Shown here: positions 1,379-59,113 of the stretch, in pieces
Numbering within the stretch: the stretch's first letter is position 1
Layout of the letters: every line of letters starts with the position of its first letter
IMG/VR virus record: IMGVR_UViG_3300043449_002710
Location: 124,001 to 188,000 of that record
Direction: 5' to 3' (one strand)
DNA length: 64,000 nucleotides
Origin: a virus
Program-made: the position numbers and the translations under genes
The notes under the pieces: model-generated
What the model saw: the letters and a program-made list of their open reading frames with translations, nothing else
What the model was told of the DNA's origin: nothing
Databases searched by the model: none

Positions 1379-1750
1379 TTATTTTTTATCGGCTGCATCC
1401 ATTTGGCGGCAGATCTTCTTGGCCCAAGACCAACCCGCATTTCCGCCCCAGAGAAGCCAAGCCACGTACCCCGCAGTCGTGTCATCGCCTTTGTATTTTA
1501 AATCGTCGGATTGATGGCGATCGAAGTAAGCTTTCATCCTACGCACAGTCGAAGGGGACAGAACCTTCCGATTGGAAAGATCCCTAGCTCTAGCGACACC
1601 CACTTCGGTCCCACCGCGATTGAGTTTCTTTCTTAACTCCAGCCCTCTTTTGGCATTGGAAGCCATCTGCTCAGTAGGTTTGAAGTTAATATGCTTATAT
1701 TTTTCAGGCGAAGAAGCTAATATTTTTTCTAGTGTGGGGTATTTAGACAT
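1379..1750 (-). CDS. Small YPT-tagged phage protein with GYVAWLLWGG domain
   Basis: A 123-residue protein of unknown function. It begins MSKYPTLEKILAS, the short peptide shared with several other proteins of this genome. The middle is basic (KRGLELRKKLNRGGTEVG) and contains a conserved-looking block DDTTAGYVAWLLWGGNAGW near residues 87-105, a pattern I associate with uncharacterised phage proteins. The start codon is preceded by a perfect 18-bp palindrome at 1756-1773 and by no Shine-Dalgarno sequence. TATTGT lies six bases before the ATG, which fits the leaderless pattern seen elsewhere, although no -35 is visible. Confidence 0.75.
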   Translation of the reverse strand: MSKYPTLEKILASSPEKYKHINFKPTEQMASNAKRGLELRKKLNRGGTEVGVARARDLSNRKVLSPSTVRRMKAYFDRHQSDDLKYKGDDTTAGYVAWLLWGGNAGWSWAKKICRQMDAADKK

Positions 1751-1755
1751 AAACT

Positions 1756-1773
1756 AACAATAAGCTTATTGTT
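1756..1773. repeat. 18-bp perfect palindrome at a stop/start junction
   Basis: AACAATAAGCTTATTGTT is its own reverse complement. It spans the TAA stop of the methyltransferase gene and ends six bases before the ATG of the next gene. An A-tract and a T-tract flank it on the minus strand. It could be a weak AT-rich hairpin terminator or an operator for the downstream gene. Confidence 0.5.
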
Positions 1774-2311
1774 TTTTCACCCCGTAGAAATATAAATCCC
1801 TAGGATAAGAATTCACGAAAAAAGCAAACTCACTGAAAATGGCGTCCACGTGCAAGACTTGGCGAATATCTTTTTCGGTCAAATTCTTATAGTAATCAAA
1901 CCAATCGCCATGCGCCGCCAAGAGCGGGGCAGAGTTAGGATCTGTCCTGCGCGTGCCGTGTTCTGGCCTGCCTTCAGTTGCGCAGGTGAAAAGAAACAAC
2001 CCACCTGGGGTCAGCATTCGAACGATGTTCTGAAGTGAAAGCGCGTAGTGCTGATCGTGCTCGAAGCACTCTGTTGAAATGATGGTGTCGTAAGACCCGT
2101 CAGGGGAATCCAATTCGTGAGCTTTGCAGACTTTATCTACGTTTTTCCCCTCACCCACATCGATTCCAAAGTAAGAACAATTCTCAAACAAGAACCTATT
2201 GTTCCCATTGATGTCCAAAGACCCCACATCGAGTACCCGTTTTCCAACGAAGTGCTCTGGAAGCTTGGCCTTAACTCTCTTACAAAAATCCATCTGTTGT
2301 GGGTGCGCCAT
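1766..2311 (-). CDS. Class I SAM-dependent methyltransferase
   Basis: Predicted 181-residue methyltransferase with a Rossmann-like fold. Motif I is KRVLDVGSLDINGNN, followed by FGIDVGEGKNVD (acidic end of beta 2), YDTIISTECFEH (motif IV region) and LTPGGLFLFTCA (post-motif). These match the Methyltransf_11 type, whose substrates are often small molecules or sugars; the substrate here is unknown. I chose the ATG at 2309-2311 because TTGAGGGG lies immediately upstream and because the longer reading starting at 2383 would run into the preceding gene. Its stop is embedded in the palindrome at 1756-1773. Being next to rmlA/B it could act on a sugar nucleotide or glycan (inference). Confidence 0.85.
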   Translation of the reverse strand: MAHPQQMDFCKRVKAKLPEHFVGKRVLDVGSLDINGNNRFLFENCSYFGIDVGEGKNVDKVCKAHELDSPDGSYDTIISTECFEHDQHYALSLQNIVRMLTPGGLFLFTCATEGRPEHGTRRTDPNSAPLLAAHGDWFDYYKNLTEKDIRQVLHVDAIFSEFAFFVNSYPRDLYFYGVKKQ

Positions 2312-2340
2312 CCCCTCAATTAACCAAAATCGAAACGGTT

Positions 2341-2559
2341 TTAACCTAACTCTTGGCGGATTTGTCTGAAGGCCGACATCCAATTACGGGTAGATCTCGG
2401 GTCATCGCTTCGGGTTTGGCGAGGGACCACAATCACTTTACGGTCTTTGACCCACATCTCGCCGTGGCGGACTCTGCGCACGTAGACAAAACCCTCTTCT
2501 CGTAAGAGCCTGATCTTGTCTCGGTACTTCGGGGCCTGCTTGATCATGGGCCAATTCAT
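2341..2559 (-). CDS. HicA-like small basic protein
   Basis: A 72-residue basic protein. The run LREEGFVYVRRVRHGEMWV then VIVVPRQTRSDDPRSTRN resembles the HicA/YcfA double-stranded-RNA-binding fold: a G-F hairpin, a histidine-glycine turn, a hydrophobic VxVP strand and a helix starting with polar residues. HicA proteins are mRNA interferases held by HicB antitoxins, but no HicB-like partner is next door, so a toxin role is not supported. Phages often carry lone proteins of this shape with unknown roles. The ATG lies 40 bases below an AT-rich stem (CTATTT/AAATAG). Confidence 0.6.
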   Translation of the reverse strand: MNWPMIKQAPKYRDKIRLLREEGFVYVRRVRHGEMWVKDRKVIVVPRQTRSDDPRSTRNWMSAFRQIRQELG

Positions 2560-2651
2560 TTAACACGAGGCCCTATTTTTATAAATAGATTTATTTGATC
2601 AGGTAATCTTTACAAGCCTTTACAAATCTTTACAACGGTTTACAACCGTTT

Positions 2652-3077
2652 TCATTCTTCAGGCAATTCCAATAGCAGATCGTACCACTCACGATAGGTG
2701 GGCTCGTCTTTTTCGGACACCGAAAAGAAGATCCCGGCAGGCAAGTCGTCCCCGGAGGGTTCCATCCCGGTCACCCCAAGAAACATATTGTAGATCCAGT
2801 CTCCGTCGCCTTCTCCGTTAAAGAAGGCTGTTTCTGGGATCAACTTTTCCTTTTTCAGCAAAGCTTCAATGTAATCTTTGGAGTCCTTGTCATTAAGTTT
2901 TCTCAAGGGCATTAAAACTGTCCCAAGCTTTTTCCCTGGAGATACTGTTCTCTGTTCCCCATCGATGGCTTCGTGAATGTCGAAAGCCAACTTTTTGTTT
3001 CCTAATTTAATATATTTTTGAGTCTTGGGACCCCATTTTTCTGAGGCCAAGACTTTTTCGACGGTGGGATATTTCAT
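2652..3077 (-). CDS. YPT-tagged paralogue A
   Basis: A 141-residue acidic protein of unknown function that begins MKYPTVEKVLAS. It is a clear paralogue of the next gene upstream. Shared blocks are the tag, LGNKKLAFDIHEA versus LGNQKLTYHVYLA, a short IP/LMPLRK strand, the segment YIEALLKKEKLI versus YLEALLKKEKII, GEGDGDWIYNMFL versus GGGDGDRDNLFL, and AGIFFSVSEKDEPTYREW versus SGIFLILAEEDLPLVNEW. The two therefore arose by tandem duplication. Its ATG overlaps the stop of the upstream copy (ATGA), so the pair is co-translated. Confidence 0.8.
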   Translation of the reverse strand: MKYPTVEKVLASEKWGPKTQKYIKLGNKKLAFDIHEAIDGEQRTVSPGKKLGTVLMPLRKLNDKDSKDYIEALLKKEKLIPETAFFNGEGDGDWIYNMFLGVTGMEPSGDDLPAGIFFSVSEKDEPTYREWYDLLLELPEE

Positions 3078-3511
3078 AATTTTTCCCCAGTCTCAATCTC
3101 GTAACCAATTTTCTCCCACTCGTTTACCAGAGGGAGATCCTCTTCGGCGAGAATCAGGAAAATGCCCGACACCTCAAAATCATTGTCGTCATAAACCCCT
3201 TGGGTTTCCAAAAACAGATTGTCTCGGTCCCCGTCCCCTCCCCCCGTCAGTCGAGCGACACTAGAGATGATCTTTTCTTTTTTGAGTAAAGCTTCGAGGT
3301 AGGGATCGAGTTCATCGACATGGACTCCGATGATTTTTCGCATCGGTATTTCAATCGATCCGCGAGAAGCCCCTGGCTCTGGGAACCTTCCCCCATCTGC
3401 CAAATAGACGTGGTAGGTCAACTTCTGGTTGCCAAGCTCAAGATGCTTTTTCTGAAGCGGCGCTAGATCGTTGGAAGCCAAAATTTTTTCGACGGTAGGA
3501 TAGGCACGCAT
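3074..3511 (-). CDS. YPT-tagged paralogue B
   Basis: A 145-residue paralogue of the gene downstream of it, starting MRAYPTVEKILAS. I placed the start at the ATG at 3509-3511 rather than the longer alternative at 3601: the longer form would overlap the preceding gene by about 70 bp and would bury the tag that otherwise sits at the N-terminus. The sequence ATTATTTT ends seven bases before the ATG, the spacing seen for several other genes, so a leaderless transcript is likely. The downstream part shares the LGNQKL, EALLKKEK and GDGD blocks with paralogue A. No known domain is recognised. Confidence 0.8.
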   Translation of the reverse strand: MRAYPTVEKILASNDLAPLQKKHLELGNQKLTYHVYLADGGRFPEPGASRGSIEIPMRKIIGVHVDELDPYLEALLKKEKIISSVARLTGGGDGDRDNLFLETQGVYDDNDFEVSGIFLILAEEDLPLVNEWEKIGYEIETGEKL

Positions 3512-3517
3512 ATCTCT

Positions 3518-3525
3518 AAAATAAT
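3518..3525 (-). promoter_or_regulatory. GTTATTTT-class promoter motif (ATTATTTT)
   Basis: Minus-strand GATTATTTT lies seven bases before the start codon of paralogue B. It is one member of the recurrent GTTATTWT class of putative phage promoters. Confidence 0.45.
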
Positions 3526-3528
3526 CTA

Positions 3529-6660: not shown

Positions 6661-7770
6661 TTATACACGAACTCCGTGTACGCACGCTCTGCCGTTGCCG
6701 ATGGCCAAGCCCATGATTTTCTGCATGTACCAGCCGCGCTCAGGCTTGCCGATCAAGTACATATTGATCGGAGCAGTGGTCACGTCTTTACGAACCGTTT
6801 GAGCGCCGAGAACGTTCGGAGCGGAGAGGAAGTAGAATTCCCCTGCGTTCAGAACCTTCAAGGTGTCATAACGGAAGCCGTCCGTGATGAGGTTGACGCC
6901 GTAGATCGAACCCAGGGAACCCGACATGATGATCTCACGCTTGGTGACCGGATCGAAGTAGGTGGCGAATTCTGGATCAGCCAGGATGTCGTTCCAGAGG
7001 TCCATAGCAATTAATCCAGTTGCGGCTGGGTTACCCCATTGCTGGATCTGTGTACGAGCCTGAGCGAAAACGCTCGGGGAGAAAGTGGTGAAGCCGACGA
7101 GGTCGTTGTACGAAGTAGCAGCGACATCGAGGAGCGACTTGAACACTTGGTCTTCTTTCACCATGAGCTGCTCCAGGCCGTCGATGTATTTGTCATCGAG
7201 GAGGTCGCCTGGGGCCTGTTCAAGTTCACGGTCTTCGATCAGAATGTGAGCCTTGACGTAGAACTCATCTGGGAAGAGGTAGGACTGATTGATCTGGGAT
7301 GTAGCCATTCCAGAATCAGTGACAGCGTAGAAAGCCATCACGTCCTTTTTACGGATGCGCAGACGACCGATTTCGCCTTTTTTGAGGTCCTTGCGCATGA
7401 CGCACTTGCGGAGGAAGCCATCGCGACCCATAGCCTCTAAAATTTCGTCCCCTAAGACTTCCCCGACAACGCGCCATGTTTCGCCGGTCTTGTCGGCCAT
7501 AGCAGCTTCAACGAGTTCTGCACGCTGATTGGCGAACTCGTGCTGTTCCTGGACTTCGCCCGAGGTAGCAGCCAAGGCGAGAGCGCCGATACGCTGCATG
7601 AGTTCCTTTTTGGAACCAGCGTTGATTTCGCCGTTCTTGTCTTCGAAAGAACCAGCGCCAGCTTCGACTTTACCGGACTTATTGATGTGCAGAGCAGTTT
7701 TGCTCTCGGACAGTTCGTTGCCCGAACGGGTCACAACGACCGTCTTTTTTGTGTAAGGATTGGTAGCCAT
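6661..7770 (-). CDS. Major capsid protein (HK97 fold)
   Basis: A 369-residue protein identified as the main head subunit. After a flexible charged N-terminus (residues 1-60) come the E-loop-like and P-domain segments DGFLRKCVMRKDLKKGEIGR, KKDVMAFYAVTDS, YVKAHILIEDRELEQAPGDL, IDGLEQLMVKEDQVFKSLLD, the A-domain YFDPVTKREIIMSGSLGS, YGVNLITDGFRYDTLKVL, and the terminal GKPERGWYMQKIMGLAIGNG. This order is typical of large myo- and siphovirus capsid proteins. A strong TAGGAG ribosome-binding site sits about nine bases before the ATG, it is the last gene of the head cluster, and a strong terminator follows: features expected of a highly expressed protein. No HK97-style fused protease is present. Confidence 0.9.
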   Translation of the reverse strand: MATNPYTKKTVVVTRSGNELSESKTALHINKSGKVEAGAGSFEDKNGEINAGSKKELMQRIGALALAATSGEVQEQHEFANQRAELVEAAMADKTGETWRVVGEVLGDEILEAMGRDGFLRKCVMRKDLKKGEIGRLRIRKKDVMAFYAVTDSGMATSQINQSYLFPDEFYVKAHILIEDRELEQAPGDLLDDKYIDGLEQLMVKEDQVFKSLLDVAATSYNDLVGFTTFSPSVFAQARTQIQQWGNPAATGLIAMDLWNDILADPEFATYFDPVTKREIIMSGSLGSIYGVNLITDGFRYDTLKVLNAGEFYFLSAPNVLGAQTVRKDVTTAPINMYLIGKPERGWYMQKIMGLAIGNGRACVHGVRV

Positions 7771-10631: not shown

Positions 10632-11126
10632 ATGGCAAAGGTCAAACGGAGCAAAAAAGGCAAAAAGATCTTAAAAACCAATATTCATGGGGACACCTGG
10701 ACGTATTCCGAAGTAACCCCACAAGAAATGGTCGGCATCTGTGGAGAAGAAGTTGAGGGGCTGACCAATTTGGATGAGCACCATATCTACATCAATGCGG
10801 ACTATCTTAATCAAGATGTCGTGATCCACGAATTGGTTCACGCTTACAAGAGCTATCTCTGTTTGGAGACAACCAACTTGACCGGAGAACAGCTCGAAGA
10901 GATCTATTGCGAGTTCTTCAGCAAGAACTGGCACAAGATTATCACTAAAAGTGCTCAGATCCTTTTGGATCTGCGCGACATCACTGAGTCCTCCGATGAG
11001 TTTTTAAATCTGGTGGAGTCTTTCATCCTCCTAAAAGCCTACGAGGGAAAGGGGAAAAAAACATTCACCCAAGAAGATCTTCAAGCAGCTAAACTTTTAC
11101 TGCGGGCTTTTTTAGAGACAACTTAA
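10632..11126 (+). CDS. Small zincin-type metallopeptidase
   Basis: A 164-residue protein with the zinc-binding HExxH motif in VVIHELVHAYKSYLCL (about residues 79-94) and a candidate third ligand glutamate in QLEEIYCEFFSKNW. A basic N-terminus (MAKVKRSKKGKKILK) may bind nucleic acid. Small zincins like this occur in phages as anti-repressor (ImmA-like) or virion peptidases; the substrate is not predictable. The ATG at 10632 has GGAG nine bases upstream; an upstream GTG in the same frame is less good. It is a lone plus-strand gene within the minus-strand head cluster and ends four bases inside its convergent neighbour. Confidence 0.78.
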   Translation: MAKVKRSKKGKKILKTNIHGDTWTYSEVTPQEMVGICGEEVEGLTNLDEHHIYINADYLNQDVVIHELVHAYKSYLCLETTNLTGEQLEEIYCEFFSKNWHKIITKSAQILLDLRDITESSDEFLNLVESFILLKAYEGKGKKTFTQEDLQAAKLLLRAFLETT

Positions 11127-11893
11127 CCCCGTAAAACGGACATCACCGTGGGGTAGGAAGTGATCGCTTTCTTTCTTCTTTTGTAAGGTTTCAAGGAGCG
11201 AATCGTTGAAATCAGCTCCGAAACATTAGGAACGCTGTCAGAAACATTGGGAATGCTAATTATGTTTAAAAGTTTTGGACCATTATGCTTCGGCCTGACC
11301 CAGAGATCCAATTTCTTTTGGTCATCATATTTGATGCCAACTTGATGACCGCAGTCTAAATCAATGAAAAAAGTGGGCGTGGACCATCCGTCTCTTGTGC
11401 CTGCTTCGTGAATTTTGACAATTTTAATACCAGCGTTTTCTAATTCTTGAACTAGCTTTTTCCCCTCGCGATTGATGCCCGCAAAATCATAGGGTGGCGC
11501 AGGTGGCGCAGGTGGCTTCTTGGGTTTACCGTTGAGTTCATCCCTTTGGTCTTGATCATAGAAGTAGCCTTGGGTTTCATCGTGTTTGCTGAATTCTAGA
11601 TCTTTGTATTTTTCGTTTTTATAATATTTCTTTTTCACCCATTTTTGAGACGAGTAAACAGACTTAAAACTTGAATCTAGATTCAATTTTTTAAAAACAT
11701 CTTCGGTGGCCTTCAATAAATTGACTTCGCCTTGGGGTGTCACTACCCTACCATAACCGTTATAGATGCCTTCAATCACTGTATCGTCTGGTAAAACGGA
11801 CACGATATGAGATTGCTCTTTGGGAAGTTTCGCCCACGGGTAAACCGGGATGCTTTCGCCAGATTTTGCGCAGAGATTAGAAAAAAAGCCCAC
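11123..11893 (-). CDS. Hypothetical protein with C-terminal YPT tag
   Basis: A 256-residue protein starting at GTG with GAGGG eight bases upstream. It has an N-terminal region with WAKLPKEQSHIVSVLPDD, a lysine/tyrosine-rich middle (KKKYYKNEKYKDLEF), a proline hinge PKKPPAPPAPP, then a globular C-terminal part (IKIVKIHEAGTRDGW, FFIDLDCGHQVGIKYDD). The last residues are KKAITSYPTVMSVLRG, a C-terminal copy of the YPT peptide otherwise found at N-termini. Function not recognised. It sits in the head cluster between the peptidase and the structural genes. Confidence 0.72.
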   Translation of the reverse strand: MGFFSNLCAKSGESIPVYPWAKLPKEQSHIVSVLPDDTVIEGIYNGYGRVVTPQGEVNLLKATEDVFKKLNLDSSFKSVYSSQKWVKKKYYKNEKYKDLEFSKHDETQGYFYDQDQRDELNGKPKKPPAPPAPPYDFAGINREGKKLVQELENAGIKIVKIHEAGTRDGWSTPTFFIDLDCGHQVGIKYDDQKKLDLWVRPKHNGPKLLNIISIPNVSDSVPNVSELISTIRSLKPYKRRKKAITSYPTVMSVLRG

Positions 11894-13836: not shown

Positions 13837-14574
13837 TTATCCGATCAGCATCGAGACGCGAAGCATTGCGCCCTGCAGGGAGCCAGAGAGGTCAGGCAAA
13901 GCCAAGACCTTGGCCTGAGGAAGCTCAACGCCTGCGCCACCGATTGTGATGATGCCGTTGTCACCCAAGGTGAGAGCAGCGCCAGTCGAATAGTCCTTCG
14001 AAGGATCGAACTGGTCGGTTGCGATTTCCACATAACCCTTGGCAACGCCGACCAAAGCGAAGTTACCAACGAGGTCGCGGTTGTTCAGAGCGCGTTCGTG
14101 GAAACGCTGACGAGCCTGCTGAACGGTCAGGTTATAGCGATAGAGGAAGTGAACAACCTTGCCAGCATCGCCAGCAGCGAACTTGATCCGGCCACCGACG
14201 AGGTCAACTTTCACGGTGCCTGTAGCAGGTGTAGCCGAGAAAGCGGTTTCGTCGATAGTGAGGTCAGAGCCGCCGACCACCATAGCGCGGTCTGCACCGG
14301 CCACGAGGTTAGCATTGCGGAGGTTGAACACGAGGCTGCCTGTGGCAGGAACTGTGAAAGCTTCGTTAGCCACGGCTGTAGCCGGGAGCATGTACGGGAG
14401 AAGAGCAACGCCAGCGATCTTCTCGGAACCGTCCACAGTAGCTTTCACGCTGACCTTCGAGACGCCGTTTTCAATGGCTTCAACGAGGATCACGCCTTCG
14501 TTTGCGATTTCAGCGCCAGCAGCAACCGGACGCTCAACTTGTTCCTGAATTTTGATCTGTTTACGATCGATCAT
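13837..14574 (-). CDS. Putative head decoration or structural protein
   Basis: A 245-residue protein, alanine- and valine-rich with few aromatic residues, directly downstream of the scaffold-like gene. Segments such as VILVEAIENGVSKVSVKATV, EAFTVPATGSLVFNLRNA and TIDETAFSATPATGTVKVD read like beta-sandwich surface domains of capsid-decorating proteins. Residues about 145-170 (YRYNLTVQQARQRFHERALN) add a helix. A strong AAGGAG ribosome-binding site supports high expression. I infer a head-associated role from gene position only. Confidence 0.65.
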   Translation of the reverse strand: MIDRKQIKIQEQVERPVAAGAEIANEGVILVEAIENGVSKVSVKATVDGSEKIAGVALLPYMLPATAVANEAFTVPATGSLVFNLRNANLVAGADRAMVVGGSDLTIDETAFSATPATGTVKVDLVGGRIKFAAGDAGKVVHFLYRYNLTVQQARQRFHERALNNRDLVGNFALVGVAKGYVEIATDQFDPSKDYSTGAALTLGDNGIITIGGAGVELPQAKVLALPDLSGSLQGAMLRVSMLIG

Positions 14575-19539: not shown

Positions 19540-20112
19540 TCACCCTTTGATGACTTTACTAATAGTCGGGTAATTTTTGAGGAGCGCTTGAATTTCAAGA
19601 TTAGTTCTTCGGACTAAAGCCGCCGCAAAAACAAACGTGCCTTTTCCATTCCTGAGTTCAGAATAGTTCTCAGCAATTTGGTTGGGGAGCAAGCTTTTAC
19701 CGATCGAGATCATCTCCCCAGATCGGCTCAAAAGAAAAACCTCGCCGTTAGATTTCTCAGGCTTAAATACAGCCATCTCTTGCTTGTACTCTGCGAGTAA
19801 AGCCATTACGTCTTTTTTGAGGTTTTCTGATTTGCCTTTGGGCGCTGAAACAAAAAGGCTATCCTCTTCGACTTTCTTCTCTTCTGGAGTACCTTTGTTC
19901 TCGATGAAATACCCATCCAGCCAATGATAGCCATAGCCTTTAGCCCTGACATCCGCCGCGAGCGCGAGGTTTCTTCGGATGTTTTCTTCGAGATCGTACT
20001 CCCCCCTGAAAGCGGTGAGAATGGCAAACGAACGATCTTCATTCTTCCACATTTCCCACACCCGAGAGAGTGTGGATGCGACCAGCCGGGTTTGTTTTAA
20101 GTTCAAAGACAT
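19540..20112 (-). CDS. DUF3293-like protein with C-terminal YPT tag
   Basis: A 190-residue protein. SFAILTAFRGEYDLEENIRR, then LAADVRAKGYGYHWLDGYF, VEEDSLFVSAP and a distal FLLSRSGEMISIGKSL follow the order of DUF3293, a small alpha/beta family found in bacteria and phages (ILTAxR...eN...L...G...GxxxE.SxfV...Q..v......G..xxLG). Function of the family is unknown. The C-terminus LLKNYPTISKVIKG is another copy of the YPT peptide. The gene lies inside the MoxR/VWA operon, preceded by AGAGGG. Confidence 0.72.
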   Translation of the reverse strand: MSLNLKQTRLVASTLSRVWEMWKNEDRSFAILTAFRGEYDLEENIRRNLALAADVRAKGYGYHWLDGYFIENKGTPEEKKVEEDSLFVSAPKGKSENLKKDVMALLAEYKQEMAVFKPEKSNGEVFLLSRSGEMISIGKSLLPNQIAENYSELRNGKGTFVFAAALVRRTNLEIQALLKNYPTISKVIKG

Positions 20113-25709: not shown

Positions 25710-25934
25710 ATGTTTCCCACCAACTATGAAAATTTTTGGGACCTTTTAAAAGACGCGGATTTCGCACGTGGGTTTTTGACCCAATGCTACCATGAAGGGT
25801 TTTCTATCCACGGAATTAGGCATCCAGATGAAATTGAAGACATGCCTTGTACCTTGGTTGTGGAGCTTTCTAGGCAGATCTTGCCGTTTTACTACATGGA
25901 AAAAACCCCAAGCCCCAATTACTGGTTTCATTGA
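25710..25934 (+). CDS. Small protein upstream of terminase
   Basis: A 74-residue protein (NFWDLLKDADFARGFLTQCY, GIRHPDEIEDMPCTLVVEL) starting one base after the preceding stop and ending in TGATG, which overlaps the terminase start. The tight coupling suggests a packaging-related role. No family recognised. Confidence 0.7.
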   Translation: MFPTNYENFWDLLKDADFARGFLTQCYHEGFSIHGIRHPDEIEDMPCTLVVELSRQILPFYYMEKTPSPNYWFH

Positions 25935-28900
25935 TGCGAAAGTCTAAAAAGTTTTTGAACCCAGAAGACCTACTGAGTCAGATCATCAGCAGTGATTTTG
26001 ATCTGTCTCAGTTTGACCAAATCGATGAAAGCCATATCCCACAGCCACCCAATTTCATCGATTGGATCACAGGCAGGGATTTCTGTAACGCAACCCTCCT
26101 ACCTTGGCAGGTTGAAGCCGGGATGCACCTGTTCTCAGATTACTGCCCAGAGTGTTCGAACCCAGAATACATCACCGAGCTATTTGATGAATCGATGGCT
26201 GAGATCCTCGATAACATCCAGTTCTTAGATCAAGGAGTTTGCCCCAAGTGCAAAAAGAATCGATTAGATCTTTTCACCTTGGGTGAAAAGCATCCGACAA
26301 AGCCATCGATTAAATCCGAGTTTATTGGAAATTTGGGCCAGAGAAGCGGAAAGACACTGGCCGAACACACCGAAGTTTTAACCCCCCAGGGGCCTGTTGC
26401 CATCAAAGATATCCAAATTGGGGATATCGTTTATGGCTGGAATCGAGACGGTTCTGTTTCTGAAACAAAAGTAGTCAATAAATTTGATCACGGTATTAAG
26501 CCTGTTCGAGACCTGATTTCTAGGGGTAGGGTACTGGCTTCTTGCACCGACGAGCACCGTTGGCTTACGTGCAGAACCAGTCGTTATGGAAAAGGAACTA
26601 GAAAACAAAGAAAATCAGATTTTTTAGAGTTAAAACTCAAAGACTTCAAGGATAACAAAGATATCGCGATTCATCGTAAATTGATCAAGATTCCTTGTGG
26701 GGAAGTTTCGGAACCCCATGCTTATGCGATTGCGGCCCTTCTTGGAGATGGGTGCTCCCGTCAAGGCACCTCAAATACGATAGATATTTCTTCAGGGGAT
26801 CAAAATGTCCCTAAAAAAGTAGCGTCTGTACTCGGAGCACAAACAATTAAACGAAACTGGGAAGATAACTATACTTGGCATATTCGCGCAGGAGATACTT
26901 ATAGCAGGGAAACATTGAACTGCCACTATTACGCGGAATGGTGCAAGGGTAAATATGCCCACGAAAAGATATGCGATCTTGAGACAATAAAAACTTGGGA
27001 TCGTGAAAGTTGCCTAGAATTCCTCGCCGGACTGATCGACACGGATGGTTCCGTACATGGAACTGGGAGACTAATTGTTGCTTTTGGTTGCCAATCCAGG
27101 TCAGTCGTAGAAGCATTCGCCTATTTGGTTTACCGCCTTTTTCAATACAAGCCAGCAATCCACATGGATAACAGACCGAAATACTTCAATGGTCCAATAT
27201 ATCAGGCAAAGGTAAACTCTACTTTTTTTGCTAAAAGAATTTTGAAAGAGATTGATCCTTATTTGGCGAGCCCAAATAGAAAATGGAAACCCGAATACGA
27301 AATGATTGGGAATCATAACTCCCATTCAGATTATACGAAACCCCAAGCTGGTGAACCCTACCTCTGTCAGACTTATGATATTGAAGTAGGGAATGAAACC
27401 AATCTTTATGTTTTGGCCCACGAAGGTCTTATAACGCACAATTCAAAAATGGTCGCGTTGTCCACAAGCTATCAGCTCAATCGCTGGTTGAGTCTTCACG
27501 ACCCGCTAGGCTTTTATGGGCTACCTCGGATGGAAGTGATCTTGGGGACTTTTTCCGCGCTCTCCGCAGAGCAAGCTGAAGAAAACCTCTGGATGCCATT
27601 CAAGGGATTAATCGACGCATCGCCTTGGTTTAAAAAGTACAATGATTTCCTCAAGTCGGAGGAGAAGCGTCTCTCCATTCCGCTTTGTGACGTGAAAGAC
27701 ACCTATATGTTCTATCCGCACAAAAGACTTCTGATCTCTTTCACAGGATCGGATGACCGGAAAAAACGCGGTCGGACTCGATTGTTTGGTGCGATTGACG
27801 AAATCGCTTTCTTGAATTCGGAAGTCGGGACTTCCAAAAAGAAGGTGATGGATGCGGATAAAAACTACGCCGCTCTCAACAACTCTCTTTCCACCATCCG
27901 GCAAAAGGCATTGATGCGATTGGCAGAGGGGCATTTCAATACGATCATGCCCATCATGTATAACGCCTCCTCGCCTTATAACGTCCAAGACAAAATCATG
28001 CGGTTGACCAAATCAGCCCCAGACAATCCCTTTGCGGTAGTGATTCACCGAGCTACTTGGGAGTCGAATCCAGACTACTCAGAAAAAACCTGTCGCGCCA
28101 TCAACCCAGGCCTTTCTCAAGTCGAGTTCGAGCGCGACTTTGGTGCAATCCCCCCGTTTTCGGATTCCCCCTATATTGGGGATGCTCGGGTGATGGAAAA
28201 GCTCTGCGCCCACAAAGATCACTATCGACCTCTTTTGAATGTGACTCGCGAAGTCCATGTCGATATGCTTGGAGACAAATATCTCTTTTTAAGAGCCAAG
28301 GCGCATCAGCTCGATAAGAATACGCCAAGGCTTTTGGCACTCGACAACGGGTACAATCAGAATGCGTTTGGTGCGGCGATCTTTGGCTATGATTCGATTC
28401 AAAAAAAGCCTGTGCTTCAGTTTTTAGTGAGCCTCTACCCAGATCCTCAATCCAATCTCTCGATTCATTTCCCATCGATGTTCGAGAATTTTATTTTGCC
28501 GATTATCCAAGGCCTCAATATTAAGCACGTCTTTTATGACCGCTGGCAGTCCCTTGATCAGATCCAGCGGTTAAGAGATATGAAAATCAACGCCGAAGCG
28601 CATTCGCTTTCTTTTGAGAAAGACATGCTGCCTTTCAAGCAGCAGCTTTTGTCTGGGAACATGGTGCTACCACCACTAGAGATCGCATCCATGCAAGAAG
28701 TCAAAGATGCGGTCAACCCCACGCAGATGACAACAGATAAACCGGTGGCCAATTTGATCTGGCAAACGCTGACTGTGAGACAGGTCGGTAAAAAAGTCTT
28801 AAAGCCTTTGGACGGGGATGACGATCTATTCCGAGCTTTTGTACTCGGGGGATCTCGCTTTTTGTCAGACGAGATCCAAAGAATTTATGCAACTTATGCT

Positions 28901-31287: not shown

Positions 31288-33543
31288 ATGTTTAAGTTTG
31301 GAAAATACGCGACTCCTAAGGGTCCTTATCAAAAATATCAAGACCCCTTGAGTTATGTCTCTAGCTCGGTAGCGAACAAAGGCTCTGTTGCAACCGCCAG
31401 CAAAAAGACACGCATTCAATCGAACTACACACCTACCCTTAGCGGAACTGATCCCAACAGTTCTTTCACCTCGGGTGGGGCGAATATTGGTGGGGGCAAC
31501 GGCGGATACAACTCGGATCGCTACAATCCGGTCTTTGATAATCTTGAGGAAGGAACAATCCTAGAGGATTGGATACCGAGAGACGCAGCCGGGCTAGATC
31601 TCTTATACCGCCGCATCTATTTGCGTGACCCAACGCTCGGCCCTGGGATTGATATCATCCGAAATTTGCCTTGGTCTGATTTCACTTTAGAAGGGATCGA
31701 GGACAACGAAATAAAAAAGATTTACGAAGAATGTATGTCTTCGCTCAATCCCATGCTTCTCATGCCTGATATCACGCATGAGTTTTTGGTTTTGGGTCGG
31801 TCCATCTCCTCTCTTATCTTTGACCATAAGCGTGGCATCTTTTCAGGCGTGGTTCCCCATGACCCAGACTTCGTGAGAATCACTCCGGTTCCAGTTTATG
31901 GATTTGACCCGATGTGCGATTTCACCTTGTCGCCTGGGTTTAAAAAGTTTCTTCAGAGCCAAGACCCTAGAGCCGTCGATGCTCGAAAGTCTTTGCCCCC
32001 CTCGTTCTTGGAAGCAGCCGCCAATCAACAAGGGTTCTTGCCGCTCGATCCGATCTCCACGATCTACCTTTCACGGAAAGCCGCGCCAAACGATTCGATT
32101 GGAACCAGCATCCTGACCCGCACTCTTTATTTTTGGGCGATTGAAAAAGCGCTGTTGAACGCCCAGCTTTCGTCCACTCGAAGACGAGCCCGCTCCTTCA
32201 TTCATTTGAAAGCCGGGATCGACAATATGTGGGAGCCTTCCCCAGAGGAGATCGACGCCCTTGCAGGCATTGTGATTCAAGCCAATGAAGATCCTGTGGG
32301 CGGAGTCATTGCCACCCGTACCGGAGTTGAGATCAGTGAGCCTGTGAGTGGTGGAGCGGATTTTTATAAATGGAGCGATGAGCTGGAACTTTTCGCAAAA
32401 TACAAAATGCAGTGTATCGGGATCTCCGATGCACTTTTAAGTGGAGACGCAACCTACGCAAATGCGGATCAAGCTCGATCTGTTTTTGTGGAAAATTTAG
32501 CTTCTCTCCGCTCTAGGATTGTGAACAAGTTTTTCATGCAAAAGCTTTTTCCTGTCGTGGCACGAGTCCATGGATTTGTAAAAAGAACGCCTGCTGAATT
32601 GAGTCATCGGATTCGAACTACTTCTGCCTTTGACGGCCCTCGGTTCCCAAGCTGGGCTCAAACGACGATGATCACATCTGAAAAACTCACTCAGCGCAAG
32701 GTCATGAGCTTACCGATCGAAAACTTAATGATCCCTACGATCAACTGGGCTAAGCAGCTTAAGCCCACCCAAGATGAAAAGGCTTTAGAAATTTTGGAGC
32801 GGCTCAAACAAAACGAGTACCCGGTGACTCTCAGCCAGTGGGCGAGCGCTGCGGGCTTAAACCCTAAAACAATCGAGCAAGAGCAAAAAGACAATCTCGA
32901 TCTTCAGAATCGAATTCAAAAGCTTCAAGAAGCCATGGCCCCGCAAGAGGCCGAGACTAGCGACTCGGGTGAAGATTTGGGAATGGATATTCCAGAAGCT
33001 TCCGACGAACAGCCTGCAGGCGAAGAGGCTCCCGCTGAAGAACCTGTCCAGCAATCGGTTTACGCTAAGGCTAAAAGAATTGCCAAAGGCGGACCTGTTG
33101 CAAGAATTGATCAAATCGCGATTTGGAACCATGGTAAATGCGGTGGATTGAGTAAAAAAGACGCTCAAAAAGTGACCAGTTCTTTATTGAAGGATTCCAA
33201 TCCTGGGATCTTTAAAGACCCAAGGGCCTTGTTGAATAAGCTTCAAGACAAAGTGGGTTCTGAGCGGGCTCCGATCCTAGCTTATGTACTGAATCGGTTG
33301 GGGTTGACTTCTTTCATGATTGATTCGAAATCGGCTCAAGTCATTGCCAAGTCGGCAAGAGATAATCTGAACCGGTATTCGTCTTTTTCTAGTGAGAAAG
33401 CTATGCTCGATGTCAGGCGTTACGAGACAGAGATTCAGGCTCTTTCTCGATACGCAGAAAAAATGCGTTTGAATCAGAGTCAGTTCAAGGCAAAATTGGC
33501 ACCGCCCCCGAGCATTGATTCTAAAGTTATGGGTGGCTATTAA
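31288..33543 (+). CDS. Portal protein
   Basis: A 751-residue protein that should form the dodecameric portal through which DNA is packaged. The core starts at LDLLYRRIYLRDPTLGPGID and LPWSDFTLEGIED, then HEFLVLGRSISSLIFDHKRG, VVPHDPDFVRITPVPVYG, a stem-like segment and DALLSGDATYANADQARSVF, an arrangement seen in large-phage portals. The N-terminal 80 residues are low complexity. The C-terminal 200 residues carry an acidic, alanine-rich stretch (EEAPAEEPVQQS) and a basic helical tail. It lies downstream of terL with GAGGAA before the ATG; four bases overlap the convergent CheY-like gene. Confidence 0.88.
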   Translation: MFKFGKYATPKGPYQKYQDPLSYVSSSVANKGSVATASKKTRIQSNYTPTLSGTDPNSSFTSGGANIGGGNGGYNSDRYNPVFDNLEEGTILEDWIPRDAAGLDLLYRRIYLRDPTLGPGIDIIRNLPWSDFTLEGIEDNEIKKIYEECMSSLNPMLLMPDITHEFLVLGRSISSLIFDHKRGIFSGVVPHDPDFVRITPVPVYGFDPMCDFTLSPGFKKFLQSQDPRAVDARKSLPPSFLEAAANQQGFLPLDPISTIYLSRKAAPNDSIGTSILTRTLYFWAIEKALLNAQLSSTRRRARSFIHLKAGIDNMWEPSPEEIDALAGIVIQANEDPVGGVIATRTGVEISEPVSGGADFYKWSDELELFAKYKMQCIGISDALLSGDATYANADQARSVFVENLASLRSRIVNKFFMQKLFPVVARVHGFVKRTPAELSHRIRTTSAFDGPRFPSWAQTTMITSEKLTQRKVMSLPIENLMIPTINWAKQLKPTQDEKALEILERLKQNEYPVTLSQWASAAGLNPKTIEQEQKDNLDLQNRIQKLQEAMAPQEAETSDSGEDLGMDIPEASDEQPAGEEAPAEEPVQQSVYAKAKRIAKGGPVARIDQIAIWNHGKCGGLSKKDAQKVTSSLLKDSNPGIFKDPRALLNKLQDKVGSERAPILAYVLNRLGLTSFMIDSKSAQVIAKSARDNLNRYSSFSSEKAMLDVRRYETEIQALSRYAEKMRLNQSQFKAKLAPPPSIDSKVMGGY

Positions 33544-39586: not shown

Positions 39587-39630
39587 TTCCGTCTCCTTGA
39601 AGAACTTTAATCAAAAACTTTTTCTAATTT

Positions 39631-39640
39631 AATAATAACC
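39631..39640 (-). promoter_or_regulatory. GGTTATTATT promoter motif
   Basis: Minus-strand AGGTTATTATTAAATTAG, 45 bases before the ATG of the 39586 gene; shared with the genes ending at 9316 and 48415. Confidence 0.5.
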
Positions 39641-39654
39641 TATGTTTTAAAGCG

Positions 39655-54847: not shown

Positions 54848-54856
54848 GGTTATTTT
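54848..54856 (+). promoter_or_regulatory. GGTTATTTT promoter motif, leaderless spacing
   Basis: AGGGTTATTTTTTAGAGT precedes the ATG at 54864, with seven bases after TATTTT. Confidence 0.5.
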
Positions 54857-54863
54857 TTAGAGT

Positions 54864-56432
54864 ATGAGAGCCTACTTTAAATTCCCCACCCTTGCTGCGA
54901 TTGTTCTAGGGCGTAATGTTGTCAACGTTCCTGGGATTGAGGACTTTGTCGAAAAATTCGAGCAAAACGATCCAAGAATCGACAACTGGCTGAAGCGGAA
55001 TCTGAGGAATTGGCTCATCAAGGATTACGACCGTTTCAGGCAGATCACACACCAAGAAGGAAACCCCGACTGGGTAGGCAAGGCCTTGGAGCGCGGTGAG
55101 AAAGTCTATGAAGTCAGACTTGATCGAGAGATCTTTGACAAGATCTCTCATGTGATCGATTGGTTCAAATCGGACGACTCGCCTAAAAGGCTGGATGCCG
55201 TAACGGTGCCCGAAGCCCTCAAGCAATCGGACGCCTGGACTGAGAAGCTTACCAAAAAGAAAGTCGATCAAGGGATTGCTCTTGCGGGAGAAGAGATTTT
55301 TAAAAAGTACGGTGACGGGTATTCTTGGCGCAAATTGGTTTCCGAAGAAGCTTTGGTTCTTGAAGGAAAGAAAATGGGCCATTGCGTGGGCGGTTACTGG
55401 AGTTCTGTGCAATCAGGGGAGACCGAGATCCTTTCCTTACGCGACCCTAAAAACGAACCTCACTGCACAGTTGAAATTAGCCACAACGAAGTACGTCAAA
55501 TCAAAGGCAAGCAAAACAAATCGGTCATCAAAGAGTATTGGTCTTATGCACAAGACCTTTTGAAAACTTTGAAAGAAAACGGCGTTTATGTCGGTGCTAA
55601 CAACTTATCCAATATTGGTCTCTATGAGATCGATGGAAAGATTGTCACTTTCAAAGAACTTGTAGCAAACCTAGACTTAGTGAAAGCTCTTTTGAAAAAA
55701 CATTTCGGTATTGATGTGACGGATGAAATGCAAGTCCAAGTTACCGAAGATGGAATTGAAGTCGGATCTAAATTTGTGGATATCCTTTTGGGGTTTTTGC
55801 CTCTTCCACGTAGACAAATTGAAGCCTATAAAAATCTCATGGAGGATTCTTACGACACAGAATTTTCCATTCACGACCACGATGTCACCGATCTCTATGA
55901 CTATGTAGAAAAGCATTACCCCAAGGCTTACAAAAGATTGGTGAAGCTTCTTGAAAGTGTCGCAACCGAGGAAGAAGCTAAAAACGAAGACTACTTGAGC
56001 CACCGCTCGGCAAGCACTTTCTTGAAGGTGTATTCCGATGAATTGCAGCCGATTTATGATGCCGCGATCTCAGGAATCTCTGACGGCTGGAGTGTTGGAA
56101 CACAAGACGCTGCTCACAAATACGTCAAAGATAAATTGTCGGAGTACGGTTGGCTGTGCGATTCCTATACTTCCGAAGATGGAGACGGTACAGTTTGGCT
56201 TCATCTCAGTTCTAGCGCAATTGCGGATGGTTATTTAGGTGATCTCTACAAAGACCCCTACGGAAGAAGAGATGGCTTTAATAGCGAATTCGATGAAGAA
56301 GTTGCCAAGGAGCGCTTTGTCGATGCGCTATTTGAGAATGGTTTCCTAAATCAAGCGGATATGGCGAGTAAGAAAAAATTAAAATCCGCTTTGGAGTATC
56401 CGGCTTTGGGAAAAATCCTAACTAGATTTTAA
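54864..56432 (+). CDS. PcfJ-like protein with YPT-type peptide at both ends
   Basis: A 522-residue protein. Residues about 150-235 match the PcfJ-like family: ALVLEGKKMGHCVGGYWSSV, GETEILSLRDPKNEPHCTVE and VRQIKGKQNKSVIKEYWSYA. This family, found in phages and mobile elements, has no established biochemical role. The remaining 280 residues are mixed. The N-terminus is MRAYFKFPTLAAIVLGRN and the C-terminus LEYPALGKILTRF, each resembling the YPT peptide of other proteins here, so this protein carries a tag at both ends. The promoter motif GGTTATTTT ends seven bases before the ATG. Confidence 0.8.
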   Translation: MRAYFKFPTLAAIVLGRNVVNVPGIEDFVEKFEQNDPRIDNWLKRNLRNWLIKDYDRFRQITHQEGNPDWVGKALERGEKVYEVRLDREIFDKISHVIDWFKSDDSPKRLDAVTVPEALKQSDAWTEKLTKKKVDQGIALAGEEIFKKYGDGYSWRKLVSEEALVLEGKKMGHCVGGYWSSVQSGETEILSLRDPKNEPHCTVEISHNEVRQIKGKQNKSVIKEYWSYAQDLLKTLKENGVYVGANNLSNIGLYEIDGKIVTFKELVANLDLVKALLKKHFGIDVTDEMQVQVTEDGIEVGSKFVDILLGFLPLPRRQIEAYKNLMEDSYDTEFSIHDHDVTDLYDYVEKHYPKAYKRLVKLLESVATEEEAKNEDYLSHRSASTFLKVYSDELQPIYDAAISGISDGWSVGTQDAAHKYVKDKLSEYGWLCDSYTSEDGDGTVWLHLSSSAIADGYLGDLYKDPYGRRDGFNSEFDEEVAKERFVDALFENGFLNQADMASKKKLKSALEYPALGKILTRF

Positions 56433-56433
56433 A

Positions 56434-56462: not shown

Positions 56463-56468
56463 TCTCCT

Positions 56469-56915
56469 GTGGCAAAAAAAACTCGCCTTAAAAACTATCC
56501 GAGTCTTGAAATGGTTTTATCCATGGCCTTTAGTCGGGACCGTTGGGTGGACAAAGTTAGGCACCGGTTAGAGGGGGCTTTGGGCGAATACGCCAAGCAG
56601 AAGTTTGCCGAAGCCATTGGATACACGGGTTGGGATTGGACCATTGAAGTAGAAACGATTCTGGCAGGTGTTTCGGACTTAATGAACACTAAAAAAGTTC
56701 AAACCAAAACAAAATTTGACCGCAAAAAAGCTTTCCAAGAAGCTTACCAAGATGCTCAGGGCAGTTATGATCAAATCGTCCACGCTCGAAACACCTTGTG
56801 TAGAGAGCATCCATTCAACATGGAACAATACCAAAGAATTAGGCTTGTAAAACTAGATGCCGATACTTTGCTTAGAGAAATGGTTCTTAAATTTCTCCCG
56901 GGGATTTTGAATTAA
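56469..56915 (+). CDS. YPS-tagged hypothetical protein
   Basis: A 148-residue protein starting at GTG. The N-terminus MAKKTRLKNYPSLEMVLSMA carries the YPT-type peptide. The body is helical and mixed-charge (KVRHRLEGALGEYAKQKFAE, KFDRKKAFQEAYQDAQGSYD). No family recognised. It is controlled by a palindromic operator that is also present before the next gene, an XRE repressor-like fusion, so the two form a regulated pair. Confidence 0.7.
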   Translation: MAKKTRLKNYPSLEMVLSMAFSRDRWVDKVRHRLEGALGEYAKQKFAEAIGYTGWDWTIEVETILAGVSDLMNTKKVQTKTKFDRKKAFQEAYQDAQGSYDQIVHARNTLCREHPFNMEQYQRIRLVKLDADTLLREMVLKFLPGILN

Positions 56916-56924
56916 ACACGCCAC

Positions 56925-56953: not shown

Positions 56954-56962
56954 TGCTATAGC

Positions 56963-57547
56963 ATGTCTTACTCTAAAAAGTTGATTCAGATTAGGTCCAA
57001 GAAAAACTGGAGCCAGGAAAAGCTGGCCTCCCACCTGAATGTCAGTTTCGCTACCGTGAATCGATGGGAAAATGAAAAATCTGAACCGCAAAGAGAAGCC
57101 AGAGAGTCGATTGATGTTTTGTGGGGAAGCCTACAAGAAGAAAACTACCCTGCCCTCAACCAAGTCCTCGCGCATTCGAAAAGATCCAAGCTCACCATTC
57201 TTTTGGACGAGAACCTTTTTCAGCTCAAGCCAGCCCTAAAAGACTCTGGGTTTAAAGTCATCTTAATGAAAAAAGGAACCTCCGACGAGGAGATTAGGGA
57301 GCTTGCCGAAGGCACTGCCATCCTCACAACTAATTCCAAAGACTTTATTCCCCACGCTGTCGCGGACGATTTCGATGTCATCTCGGCGGAACTGATCAAG
57401 TTCATCGATACTGAGCCCACTCGTAAAAACCAGACGGTTCAAAAGATAGCCAAAGCCATTCGAGAAAGTGGGATGGTTTTCACCCGTGGTAATTTCAATT
57501 TAGTCGTCCGAGATGACGGATCTTACGAACTCAAACCTTTAGTCTAA
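56963..57547 (+). CDS. XRE-type HTH fused to a DUF5615 (PIN-like) domain
   Basis: A 194-residue fusion. Residues 1-50 are an XRE helix-turn-helix (LIQIRSKKNWSQEKLASHLN, VSFATVNRWENEKSEPQREA). Residues 57-70 hold NYPALNQVLAHSKRS, which resembles the YPT peptide but here lies at a domain junction. Residues 72-160 match DUF5615, a PIN-like nuclease family: LTILLDENLFQLKPALKDSG, FKVILMKKGTSDEEIRELAE, GTAILTTNSKDFIPHAV. The acidic positions D (LLDEN) and D (TSDEE) are kept; the usual third D is NSKD. Normally DUF5615 toxins are paired with separate antitoxins; here the DNA-binding part is fused. Confidence 0.8.
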   Translation: MSYSKKLIQIRSKKNWSQEKLASHLNVSFATVNRWENEKSEPQREARESIDVLWGSLQEENYPALNQVLAHSKRSKLTILLDENLFQLKPALKDSGFKVILMKKGTSDEEIRELAEGTAILTTNSKDFIPHAVADDFDVISAELIKFIDTEPTRKNQTVQKIAKAIRESGMVFTRGNFNLVVRDDGSYELKPLV

Positions 57548-57553
57548 GTTGAG

Positions 57554-58120
57554 TCACTTCTTAGGCCGCTTAGCTTTAAAGAAAGCTCTCCCTAAGCAAA
57601 TGGCATCTGCAATGTCGTTGTCTTTGATTTTTAACTCCAGGCCATACATGGCGTTAGCAGCCCTGACGGACAGGTGCTTTTTAGTAACCCTGCCACGCTT
57701 TTTACCGGCTGAGACTTGGCGGTTATTTTTCAGATCCTCTTTGCTCATCCGAAGCTCTAAGAGCTTTCTCCACTCGCTCGGATCGAGGTAATGAACCTTG
57801 ACCCCCACAGCCCTAAAGTTCTCCAAAACCGCTTTATGGGTAAATTCTAGGATACGCTGGGTATGCCTGTTTTTTCCACGTACTGTATTCTCAGCCACTA
57901 CTTGATCGGGCTTGTACTTACCCCAAAGTTCCATCACCTTGTGAGCCATCTTGTTTGAGGCATCTAGGATGTTGTAAGGGTACTCGGGCATCTTCTCAGG
58001 GTAGCCGTTGACGTTGAAGTTGGGGACCGAGATTTCGATCACCCCAAAATCTCCTAGGTTATCATCCTTGATAACTGCCCACCCTGTCGATGTACTTAAA
58101 TCGAGCGCTAGAATTTTCAC
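57554..58120 (-). CDS. RuvC-like Holliday junction resolvase
   Basis: A 188-residue RNase H-fold nuclease: first catalytic Asp in ILALDLSTSTGWAVI, second acidic in QVVAENTVRGKNRHTQRILE, last acidic pair in IKDNDIADAICLGRAFF. It matches the phage RuvC-like family that resolves branched DNA before packaging. Length and motifs are normal. It is convergent with the XRE fusion (ends six bases apart) and overlaps no gene. Confidence 0.88.
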   Translation of the reverse strand: MKILALDLSTSTGWAVIKDDNLGDFGVIEISVPNFNVNGYPEKMPEYPYNILDASNKMAHKVMELWGKYKPDQVVAENTVRGKNRHTQRILEFTHKAVLENFRAVGVKVHYLDPSEWRKLLELRMSKEDLKNNRQVSAGKKRGRVTKKHLSVRAANAMYGLELKIKDNDIADAICLGRAFFKAKRPKK

Positions 58121-58132
58121 ACTGATGTTTTA

Positions 58133-58543
58133 CTAATCCACTTTGGATTTCAAAGCGCCCGACTCCATGTGCTTTCTGAGAGTCTTCATCATGAGCTTGC
58201 ACTTCTTGCCGCGATCCTTGATCTCTTGCCGCCAGGATTTCACGTAGTAAGCGAGATCCTCTTTGGCTTGAAGATGATCTTGAGTCATGTGGTTGAGCTT
58301 CACTTCTTCAAGCTTTCTTTTAGCCTCAATCACATCGGGTTCTTGCTCAAGCTTTTCCTTGTGCGCTTTCAGTTCTTCTTCGAGGTCGAGCTTCTTGGCG
58401 TCATTCTTGAGCATCTCTTTGGACCGCTCAAGCATCAGTTGCTCACGAGCAGCTTCAATCGCCAAATCCTCAGGCTTCATGGCGTTGATCGCGTCCACGA
58501 CTTCCTGAGGAAGGTCACCCTTCTTCTTAGGTTTCTTAGCCAT
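58133..58543 (-). CDS. Coiled-coil protein upstream of RuvC
   Basis: A 136-residue, lysine/glutamate-rich protein that is nearly all coiled coil (LERSKEMLKNDAKKLDLEEE, KAHKEKLEQEPDVIEAKRKL). The C-terminus is basic (KDRGKKCKLMMKTLRKHMES). GGGGGAAG precedes the ATG; TTGACA lies about 50 bases upstream. Function not recognised; it is transcribed with the resolvase. Confidence 0.68.
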   Translation of the reverse strand: MAKKPKKKGDLPQEVVDAINAMKPEDLAIEAAREQLMLERSKEMLKNDAKKLDLEEELKAHKEKLEQEPDVIEAKRKLEEVKLNHMTQDHLQAKEDLAYYVKSWRQEIKDRGKKCKLMMKTLRKHMESGALKSKVD

Positions 58544-58624
58544 GCTTCCCCCTAGGCTCTCTCAAATTGATTTTGAAATCACGCTAGGGGATTTCGGATC
58601 GTCTGTCAAATCAAAGAACCCGAC

Positions 58625-59113
58625 TCACCGCTTCTTAAGCTTGGCCTTTTTCATGGTCGGGTATTCCATCTCCGCTTTAGCGCGAGCTTTTTTAGCTAAA
58701 GTTTCTTTTTCCTTTTTAGTCAACCGCTTCACTTTGGCTTTAGAAGCTTTTGCTCTTTTTCCCTTTTTGACTTTGGCTTCGATGACTTCCGAAACAGAAG
58801 CAAAGATCGAGGCAAGTCCTGGGTAGCGATTGGAATCCACTTGAACCTTGGTCACCATTTCTTTGACTGCACCACTTTTCTTCACAAGATTCTCCAGTAC
58901 GGGTTCAATCGCTTCCAAGGCTTCGTCTGCCCACTTGCGGTCGAGATCCTTGGTGGTTTCTTCAAGCTGATCGTAAGGAACAAAAGATTGCTCCCAACGA
59001 GCGCTGCGCTCGGCACTAACTTCGGCTTTGACAGCCTTTGCCCAGTGAACCCACGCCTCGTGAAAAACTTCAGCCAAGGATTCTTTGATCTGATCTTTTG
59101 TTTCTTTGTCCAT
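58625..59113 (-). CDS. YPT-tagged basic protein
   Basis: A 162-residue protein starting at ATG 59113 (GAGG six bases upstream; a TTG-initiated form four codons longer is possible). It is helical with an N-terminal acidic region (KDQIKESLAEVFHEAWVHWA), a middle part SNRYPGLASIFASVSEVIEA and a very basic tail (KGKRAKASKAKVKRLTKKEK). The C-terminus is AEMEYPTMKKAKLKKR, another copy of the YPT peptide; the segment RYPGLASIFAS in the middle also resembles it. The ATG lies eight bases after the stop of the giant gene, so they are co-transcribed. Confidence 0.7.
   Translation of the reverse strand: MDKETKDQIKESLAEVFHEAWVHWAKAVKAEVSAERSARWEQSFVPYDQLEETTKDLDRKWADEALEAIEPVLENLVKKSGAVKEMVTKVQVDSNRYPGLASIFASVSEVIEAKVKKGKRAKASKAKVKRLTKKEKETLAKKARAKAEMEYPTMKKAKLKKR

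Follow-up and report, generated by a model that had tools for sequence, protein, structure and literature searches.

A nine-residue peptide at the ends of unrelated jumbo phage proteins, a candidate procapsid-targeting tag

Background

The virus record IMGVR_UViG_3300043449_002710 raises the question why otherwise unrelated proteins of one phage begin or end with the same nine-residue peptide, YPTLxKVLA in its consensus form. The window analysed here is a stretch of 64,000 nucleotides, bases 124001-188000 of this 223,260-base record, and the remainder of the record was read as well. The record belongs to a jumbo phage of approximately 223 kb, and the genes of its terminase, portal and major capsid protein (MCP) all lie inside the window. 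A first-pass annotation of the window had listed nine open reading frames (ORFs) with ten copies of the peptide and had compared it to a sorting signal such as the capsid-targeting sequence (CTS) of phage T4. We found all nine ORFs and ten peptides as described there. In the following, we call the peptide the tag and argue that it is probably a procapsid (head) targeting peptide, which would work like the T4 CTS without being related to it in sequence and without being bound to one position in the protein.

Results

The window contains the following copies of the tag:

1715..1741, minus strand: N-terminal tag YPTLEKILA of protein 1379-1750 (strong; 26.7-27.4 bit class)
3045..3071, minus strand: N-terminal tag YPTVEKVLA of protein 2652-3077 (strong)
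3476..3502, minus strand: N-terminal tag YPTVEKILA of protein 3074-3511 (strong)
11129..11155, minus strand: C-terminal tag YPTVMSVLR of protein 11123-11893 (strong)
19546..19572, minus strand: C-terminal tag YPTISKVIK of the S-adenosylmethionine (SAM) lyase 19540-20112 (strong)
54882..54908, plus strand: doubtful N-terminal copy FPTLAAIVL (FKFPTLAAIVLG) of protein 54864-56432 (weak)
56397..56423, plus strand: C-terminal tag YPALGKILT of the PcfJ-like protein 54864-56432 (strong)
56496..56522, plus strand: N-terminal tag YPSLEMVLS of protein 56469-56915 (strong)
57146..57172, plus strand: interdomain tag YPALNQVLA of protein 56963-57547, between its helix-turn-helix (HTH) and DUF5615-like parts (strong)
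58637..58663, minus strand: weak C-terminal copy YPTMKKAKL of the RyR-like protein 58625-59125 (<8 bits)
58799..58825, minus strand: internal weak copy YPGLASIFA (NRYPGLASIFAS) of the RyR-like protein 58625-59125 (9.1 bits)

Eight of the ten copies originally listed are strong, whereas EYPTMKKAKL (<8 bits) and FKFPTLAAIVLG of protein 54864-56432 are weak. The latter adjoins a segment xxLxRNVxN, and the same segment is present in a relative that lacks the peptide. The internal copy NRYPGLASIFAS of the RyR-like protein comes in addition to the ten. Proteins 2652-3077 and 3074-3511 are indeed tandem paralogues (41% identity). For protein 56963-57547 the HTH part and the interdomain copy are confirmed, but the nuclease-like domain attributed to it amounts to a sub-threshold DUF5615 match.

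The tag was the rank-one terminal motif of the record in an unsupervised search of protein ends, which made no use of prior knowledge and was seeded with each 9-mer from the N-terminal 45 and C-terminal 40 residues of every non-redundant ORF. The N-terminal motif reached a mean score of 38.5 over 6 partners (shuffle maximum 25.8) and a score of 35.3 over 10 partners (shuffle maximum 22.2). With T4 as positive control, the same method returned homing-endonuclease repeats and not the CTS, so weak tags are missed by it. Individual copies were scored by a position-specific matrix with leave-one-out and with thresholds of >14 bits (strong) and >10 bits. Above 14 bits, there are 21 matches in 70,214 residues of this phage versus 3 in 662,545 residues of 13 other phages, corresponding to 29.9 and 0.45 copies per 100,000 residues. 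If terminal is defined as at most 16 residues from the start or 8 from the end, 20 of the 27 matches above 10 bits in the whole record are terminal, with 9.8% expected (p = 3e-15), as had been anticipated for a tag of protein ends. A chance origin is rejected by the shuffles, by the 13 other phages and by this terminal enrichment.

Synonymous codons differ freely from copy to copy. For this reason a DNA-level repeat or mobile element is rejected as the origin of the copies, and the codon usage indicates that the tag is conserved at the protein level. After masking of the tag, the approximately 25 tagged proteins of the 223-kb record fall into 21 unrelated families, with four pairs of true paralogues among them, which confirms the earlier impression of unrelated bodies. 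Most tags are N-terminal, 7-8 are C-terminal and two or three lie between domains. The mean hydrophobic moment of the tags (0.45 versus a background of 0.31) fits a predicted short amphipathic helix with the proline at its N-cap.

Outside the window, further proteins that begin or end with the tag lie at record positions 46630, 48846, 59500, 86134, 100802, 120608, 188969, 189556, 190413, 200230, 200763 and 215016, and there are others. Those at 190413 and 46630 have tag and zinc-ribbon-like N-termini in common. Two apparently internal copies are probably N-terminal as well, judging from the start sites: in the 526-residue ORF at 198645 (L013:10746-12326) a start codon (MKTQTPKKQYPTLSAILAA) lies a few residues ahead of the tag, and the copy within ORF 38930-40810 starts MKKYSALSKVLAS with a ribosome-binding-like GAGGGTGAG upstream. 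The remaining true interdomain copies are those in 56963-57547 and, weakly, in 58625-59125. The 526-residue ORF seems to join several overlapping genes, and its middle third gives a plausible protein only in another frame, which ends in a tag-like NNYSSLIAYLEKL.

The proteins that carry the tag include the SAM lyase, PcfJ-like proteins, the XRE and DUF5615-like fusion, the RyR-like protein and many of unknown function. The SAM lyase 19540-20112 matches Pfam S-AdoMet_lyase over residues 31-140 (E=3.5e-9), and the composite ORF at 198645 has a weakly ADP-ribosyltransferase-like stretch upstream of its tag. A motif scan of the record found no tag on DNA polymerase A, the DnaB-like helicase, UvsX or the SMC-like ATPase, nor on MCP, portal, terminase or the phrog_16710 head protein. 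By the domain content of its carriers, the tagging pattern is one of accessory cargo and not of a replication hub.

Homologues of two tagged bodies, those of protein 1379-1750 and of the SAM lyase, align only outside the tag; phage homologues of the SAM lyase span residues 10-166 only and thus end before its C-terminal tag. From these alignments the tag appears as an add-on outside conserved bodies. The most informative case is the following:

1379..1750, minus strand: tagged protein whose body, residues 14-123, is the phrog_2859 module (homologue alignments)

This protein consists of a 13-residue tag (MSKYPTLEKILAS) and a 110-residue body. Homologues of the body were found in 89 phages, and among the matches listed the alignment begins at residue 14 or later; one weaker match, from the giant Salicola phage SCTP-2, aligns from residue 6. 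Roseobacter phage CRP-406 has the body at the start of a polyprotein of 794 residues that also contains the domains Peptidase_S78 (prohead protease) and Phage_capsid. Vibrio phage 1.122 likewise has it at the start of a coil-containing protein of 661 residues, whose gene lies between those for head morphogenesis and MCP, and three more phages have it within proteins annotated as prohead protease, head morphogenesis or major capsid protein. The Vibrio protein runs on beyond ...KQMESADKKGKNNM, and protein 1379-1750 ends at ...RQMDAADKK. ORF 1379-1750 thus ends where the fused part starts in other phages, and the tag is attached instead. Since the body would enter the procapsid by its fusion to protease, scaffold or capsid elsewhere, the tag would replace that fusion here. 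Fusion partners were also sought for two other tagged bodies, with no match.

The SCTP-2 homologue of protein 1379-1750 stands alone and begins MKINDFTSTKLFEDE (MKIND), and other SCTP-2 proteins (L413, L415, L417, L419, L421) begin MKINDLLKEN or MKVNDILKEN. These N-termini resemble those of the T4 internal proteins (IPs), a likeness noticed after the fact and only a lead.

A second connection to the head comes from gene order, for which four untagged genes of the window are relevant:

6661..7770, minus strand: MCP (phrog_2522, E=8.7e-55; 54% identity to the L205 MCP)
13837..14574, minus strand: head and packaging protein phrog_16710 (profile match)
25931..29035, plus strand: terminase large subunit (phrog_17415, E=3e-115; probable intein after the P-loop)
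31288..33543, plus strand: portal protein (phrog_16240, E=2.5e-106)

The tagged gene 11123-11893 sits between two head genes, those for the phrog_16710 protein and the MCP. In the IMG/VR contig G102, whose terminase is 35% identical, six small proteins with unrelated bodies carry MKNELKALYKKDPKLAKEVAKVLGYKI at the N-terminus, and all six genes lie within the cluster for sheath, tube, baseplate hub, tape measure, terminase, portal and MCP. Contig G092 has three small proteins with N-terminal MKNELKALYKKDPKLAKEVAKVLGYKI. In each of the two contigs, two tagged genes directly separate the head gene of phrog_16710 from that of the MCP, in the same slot that gene 11123-11893 occupies here. The MKNELKALYKKDPKLAKEVAKVLGYKI loci are L185-L187 and L294 in G102 and L203 and L295 in G092. 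A further contig, G067 (L169, L176, L177, L180, L181), has a C-terminal RRxAIxAQK on seven otherwise different proteins, with a score of 31.3 (shuffle maximum 24.8). Three further large phages among the MCP relatives gave no significant terminal motif.

A short upstream element, GTTATTTT, occurs 31 times in the record, often 9-45 bases before a start codon, and precedes genes of the terminase, portal, fibre and tail regions. Some tagged genes are preceded by it as well, in the window at the following site:

54849..54856, plus strand: GTTATTTT, 15 nt before the start of tagged 54864 (record 178864)

Elsewhere in the record it lies directly before tagged 120608, occurs in the operon of 86134 and heads the operon with 200230 and 200763. 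The element is not an ordinary -10 box, because it lies too close to some start codons, and it may act on translation rather than on transcription. From its distribution, it points to no more than shared control of tagged and virion genes. Other sites in the window are 23661 and 51645, both on the minus strand.

Among named phages, PaBG and the Erwinia and Dickeya jumbo phages come closest in terminase and portal (approximately 30% identity); the closest MCP relatives are uncultured IMG/VR phages (52-54% identity). A search for close relatives via the portal and via protein 3074-3511 found none. An insertion of approximately 375 residues, which contains a LAGLIDADG domain, separates the P-loop (GQRSGKS) of the terminase 25931-29035 from residue 514 and is probably an intein; intein domains are also present in DNA polymerase A (L008:945-5039) and UvsX (L010:15171-17549). 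At 4809-6566 of the window, a Mom-like DNA-modification protein is continuous with a GIY-YIG nuclease and several HTH domains. A C-terminal segment ...KIWDCGQAKW is common to several large proteins (L292, L309 and, in this phage, L011 and L013) and is probably a fibre or tip domain.

Discussion

Several observations favour head targeting as the function of the tag. Other phages have one of the tagged bodies as a fusion to prohead protease, scaffold or capsid, a similar tag of two relatives lies in the virion cluster beside the MCP gene, and the phage's own tagged gene 11123-11893 lies between head genes. Moreover, the element GTTATTTT of the terminase and fibre-region genes precedes some tagged genes or operons as well, and the cargo (SAM lyase, weak ADP-ribosyltransferase-like match) is of the type that phages pre-package. 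The proposed sorting signal of the T4 kind therefore holds as far as the modular add-on and the links to head fusions and to a virion cluster are concerned, while packaging, receptor and cleavage are predicted steps. According to this proposal, a short modular cargo-targeting peptide would be attached to approximately 25 accessory proteins, at either terminus or at a domain boundary. It would form an amphipathic helix capped by proline, and its Tyr, Leu and Val/Leu side chains might dock into one prohead receptor, for which scaffold, core or the inner face of the capsid are candidates. The cargo would be trapped in the head at assembly and ejected with the DNA at infection, so that injected enzymes, the SAM lyase among them, could act ahead of phage gene expression.

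The comparison with known systems shows likenesses and differences. Ten N-terminal residues of the T4 CTS are enough to package foreign proteins (PMC9026906). As in IPI, IPII, IPIII and Alt of T4, a short peptide (approximately 10 residues there) is found on otherwise divergent accessory proteins, and it has been kept although their bodies show little conservation. The packaged proteins of T4 include an ADP-ribosyltransferase and anti-restriction proteins. However, the T4 peptide is N-terminal and removed by gp21, whereas the tag described here occurs at either terminus or between domains, with no protease found for it, and there are approximately 25 cargo proteins here compared with a handful in T4. 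The tag does not resemble the N-terminus of the T4 IPs (MKTYQEFIAEA). Because of its different sequence, its occurrence outside the N-terminus and the failure to find a protease, we do not claim that the tag belongs to the T4 CTS family. The phage SPN3US is likewise a jumbo phage with many ejected head proteins, and an N-terminal propeptide has been proposed to target its gp47 and a C-terminal one its protease (PMC7411985). Its propeptides, however, comprise 64-130 residues and are cleaved at a defined motif, in contrast to the nine-residue shared element reported here. The peptide of G102 and G092 is comparable in that it is N-terminal on several unrelated small proteins of phages with related terminase, portal and MCP, but it has approximately 25 residues and is N-terminal only. 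Encapsulin cargo-loading peptides are short and terminal and bind the inside of an HK97-fold shell; unlike this tag, they are mainly C-terminal, with another motif and a bacterial shell.

There are also points that weigh against head targeting. The phage is uncultured. No scaffold was identified in it, and an S78 prohead protease was not found although the controls matched; a search for an S77 (gp21-type) protease gave no match anywhere and is thus uninformative about its presence. Known CTS peptides are N-terminal, which makes C-terminal and interdomain copies unusual. The single-sequence AlphaFold2 model of the SAM lyase (pLDDT 44.5) shows a helix over the tag only weakly and is too poor to use. 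The element GTTATTTT precedes 5 of 26 tagged genes versus 32 of 230 others and is not clearly enriched. The proposed homology of the G102 tag to YPTLxKVLA (as P-x-L-x-K-x-V-A) was rejected, the similarity reaching only the 80th-96th percentile of unrelated N-termini; since it is not significant, the G102 and G092 tags are analogues at most. Finally, nine named jumbo phages do not contain the YPTLxKVLA DNA pattern, 46 IMG/VR terminase relatives gave only two isolated chance-level matches to it, and homologues of the cargo bodies do not have the YPTLxKVLA letters. The first-pass annotation had named absence from orthologues in related phages as a finding that would speak against its proposal, and taken literally this is what we observed. 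PcfJ relatives, too, are without the tag. In IMG/VR, GTDB genomes and >120 related or tag-matching viral records the DNA pattern gave isolated, internal or chance matches only, a profile of the tag alignment had no match in seven phage records (a search without positive control), and no other phage among those searched uses the YPTLxKVLA letters as a terminal tag. However, most cargo proteins have no counterpart in relatives, and for this reason we read the missing letters as a lineage-specific code.

Among the other explanations, docking of the tag to an intracellular hub or compartment (a host-takeover complex, a condensate or the replication compartment), with cargo co-localised in the cell and not packaged, deserves most discussion, and we consider it unlikely. 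In its favour, the cargo consists of accessory, enzyme-like proteins, and many of the tagged genes are found in accessory islands at a distance from the virion genes. In addition, PMC11157265 and PMC12339742 describe for bacterial microcompartments that short terminal helical peptides, linked to enzymes, direct cargo into a protein shell and can drive co-assembly. Those are cellular organelles with unrelated shell proteins, to which we claim no homology; the only shell-type gene seen here is that of the phage MCP, no search having been aimed at microcompartment or encapsulin shells. The absence of the tag from replication proteins, terminase, portal and MCP argues against a replication hub or a nucleus-import signal: DNA polymerase, DnaB-like helicase, UvsX and terminase are untagged, and an import signal of the phage nucleus (Chimalliviridae) would be expected on replication, recombination and transcription proteins, where those checked lack it. 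Two further points against a hub are the body that is fused to prohead components elsewhere and the comparable tag of a relative in the virion cluster. Targeting to another virion compartment, such as baseplate, tail or portal vertex, would agree with tagged gene 86134 between conserved tail-region genes and with the four of six tagged genes of G102 near tail or terminase genes. Yet the one informative body is joined to head proteins in other phages, and both G102 and G092 have two tagged genes ahead of MCP, which leaves this explanation with very little probability.

We regard it as similarly improbable that the tag is no address at all but marks proteins as substrates of a phage protease or another processing enzyme, or for activation by it. 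Many copies run on as YPTLxKVLA-S or -A, and head maturation proteases trim short propeptides (PMC7411985), but C-terminal copies stop 1-6 residues past the motif, so that cleavage there would release almost nothing, and the S78 protease was not found. Remnants of a mobile coding cassette or of gene duplication, without function in trans, would fit the four pairs of true paralogues and the tag and zinc-ribbon-like N-termini shared by 190413 and 46630. The 21 unrelated bodies, the freely varying codons and the placement at both ends, however, require selection on the peptide, and an origin as remnants is extremely improbable.

Conclusions

If the tag is a head-targeting peptide, a nine-residue, position-independent packaging signal would mark the whole set of injected proteins of this phage, many of them of unknown function, and the injected arsenal could be read from sequence alone. 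More tentatively, it is possible that each giant phage of this lineage keeps a private address code, made of a short peptide and one co-evolving prohead receptor, that functions at both protein ends and at interdomain sites. The code would be YPTLxKVLA in the present phage and a LYKKDPKLAKEVAKVLG helix in G102 and G092, and G067 may use its C-terminal RRxAIxAQK. The gain of nine residues would then be enough to turn the product of any newly captured gene into an injected virion protein. This would offer a simple route to anti-defence proteins and a programmable tag for the loading of large phage heads, and the way in which jumbo phages choose their pre-packaged proteins would become testable by a search for terminal tags in each genome.

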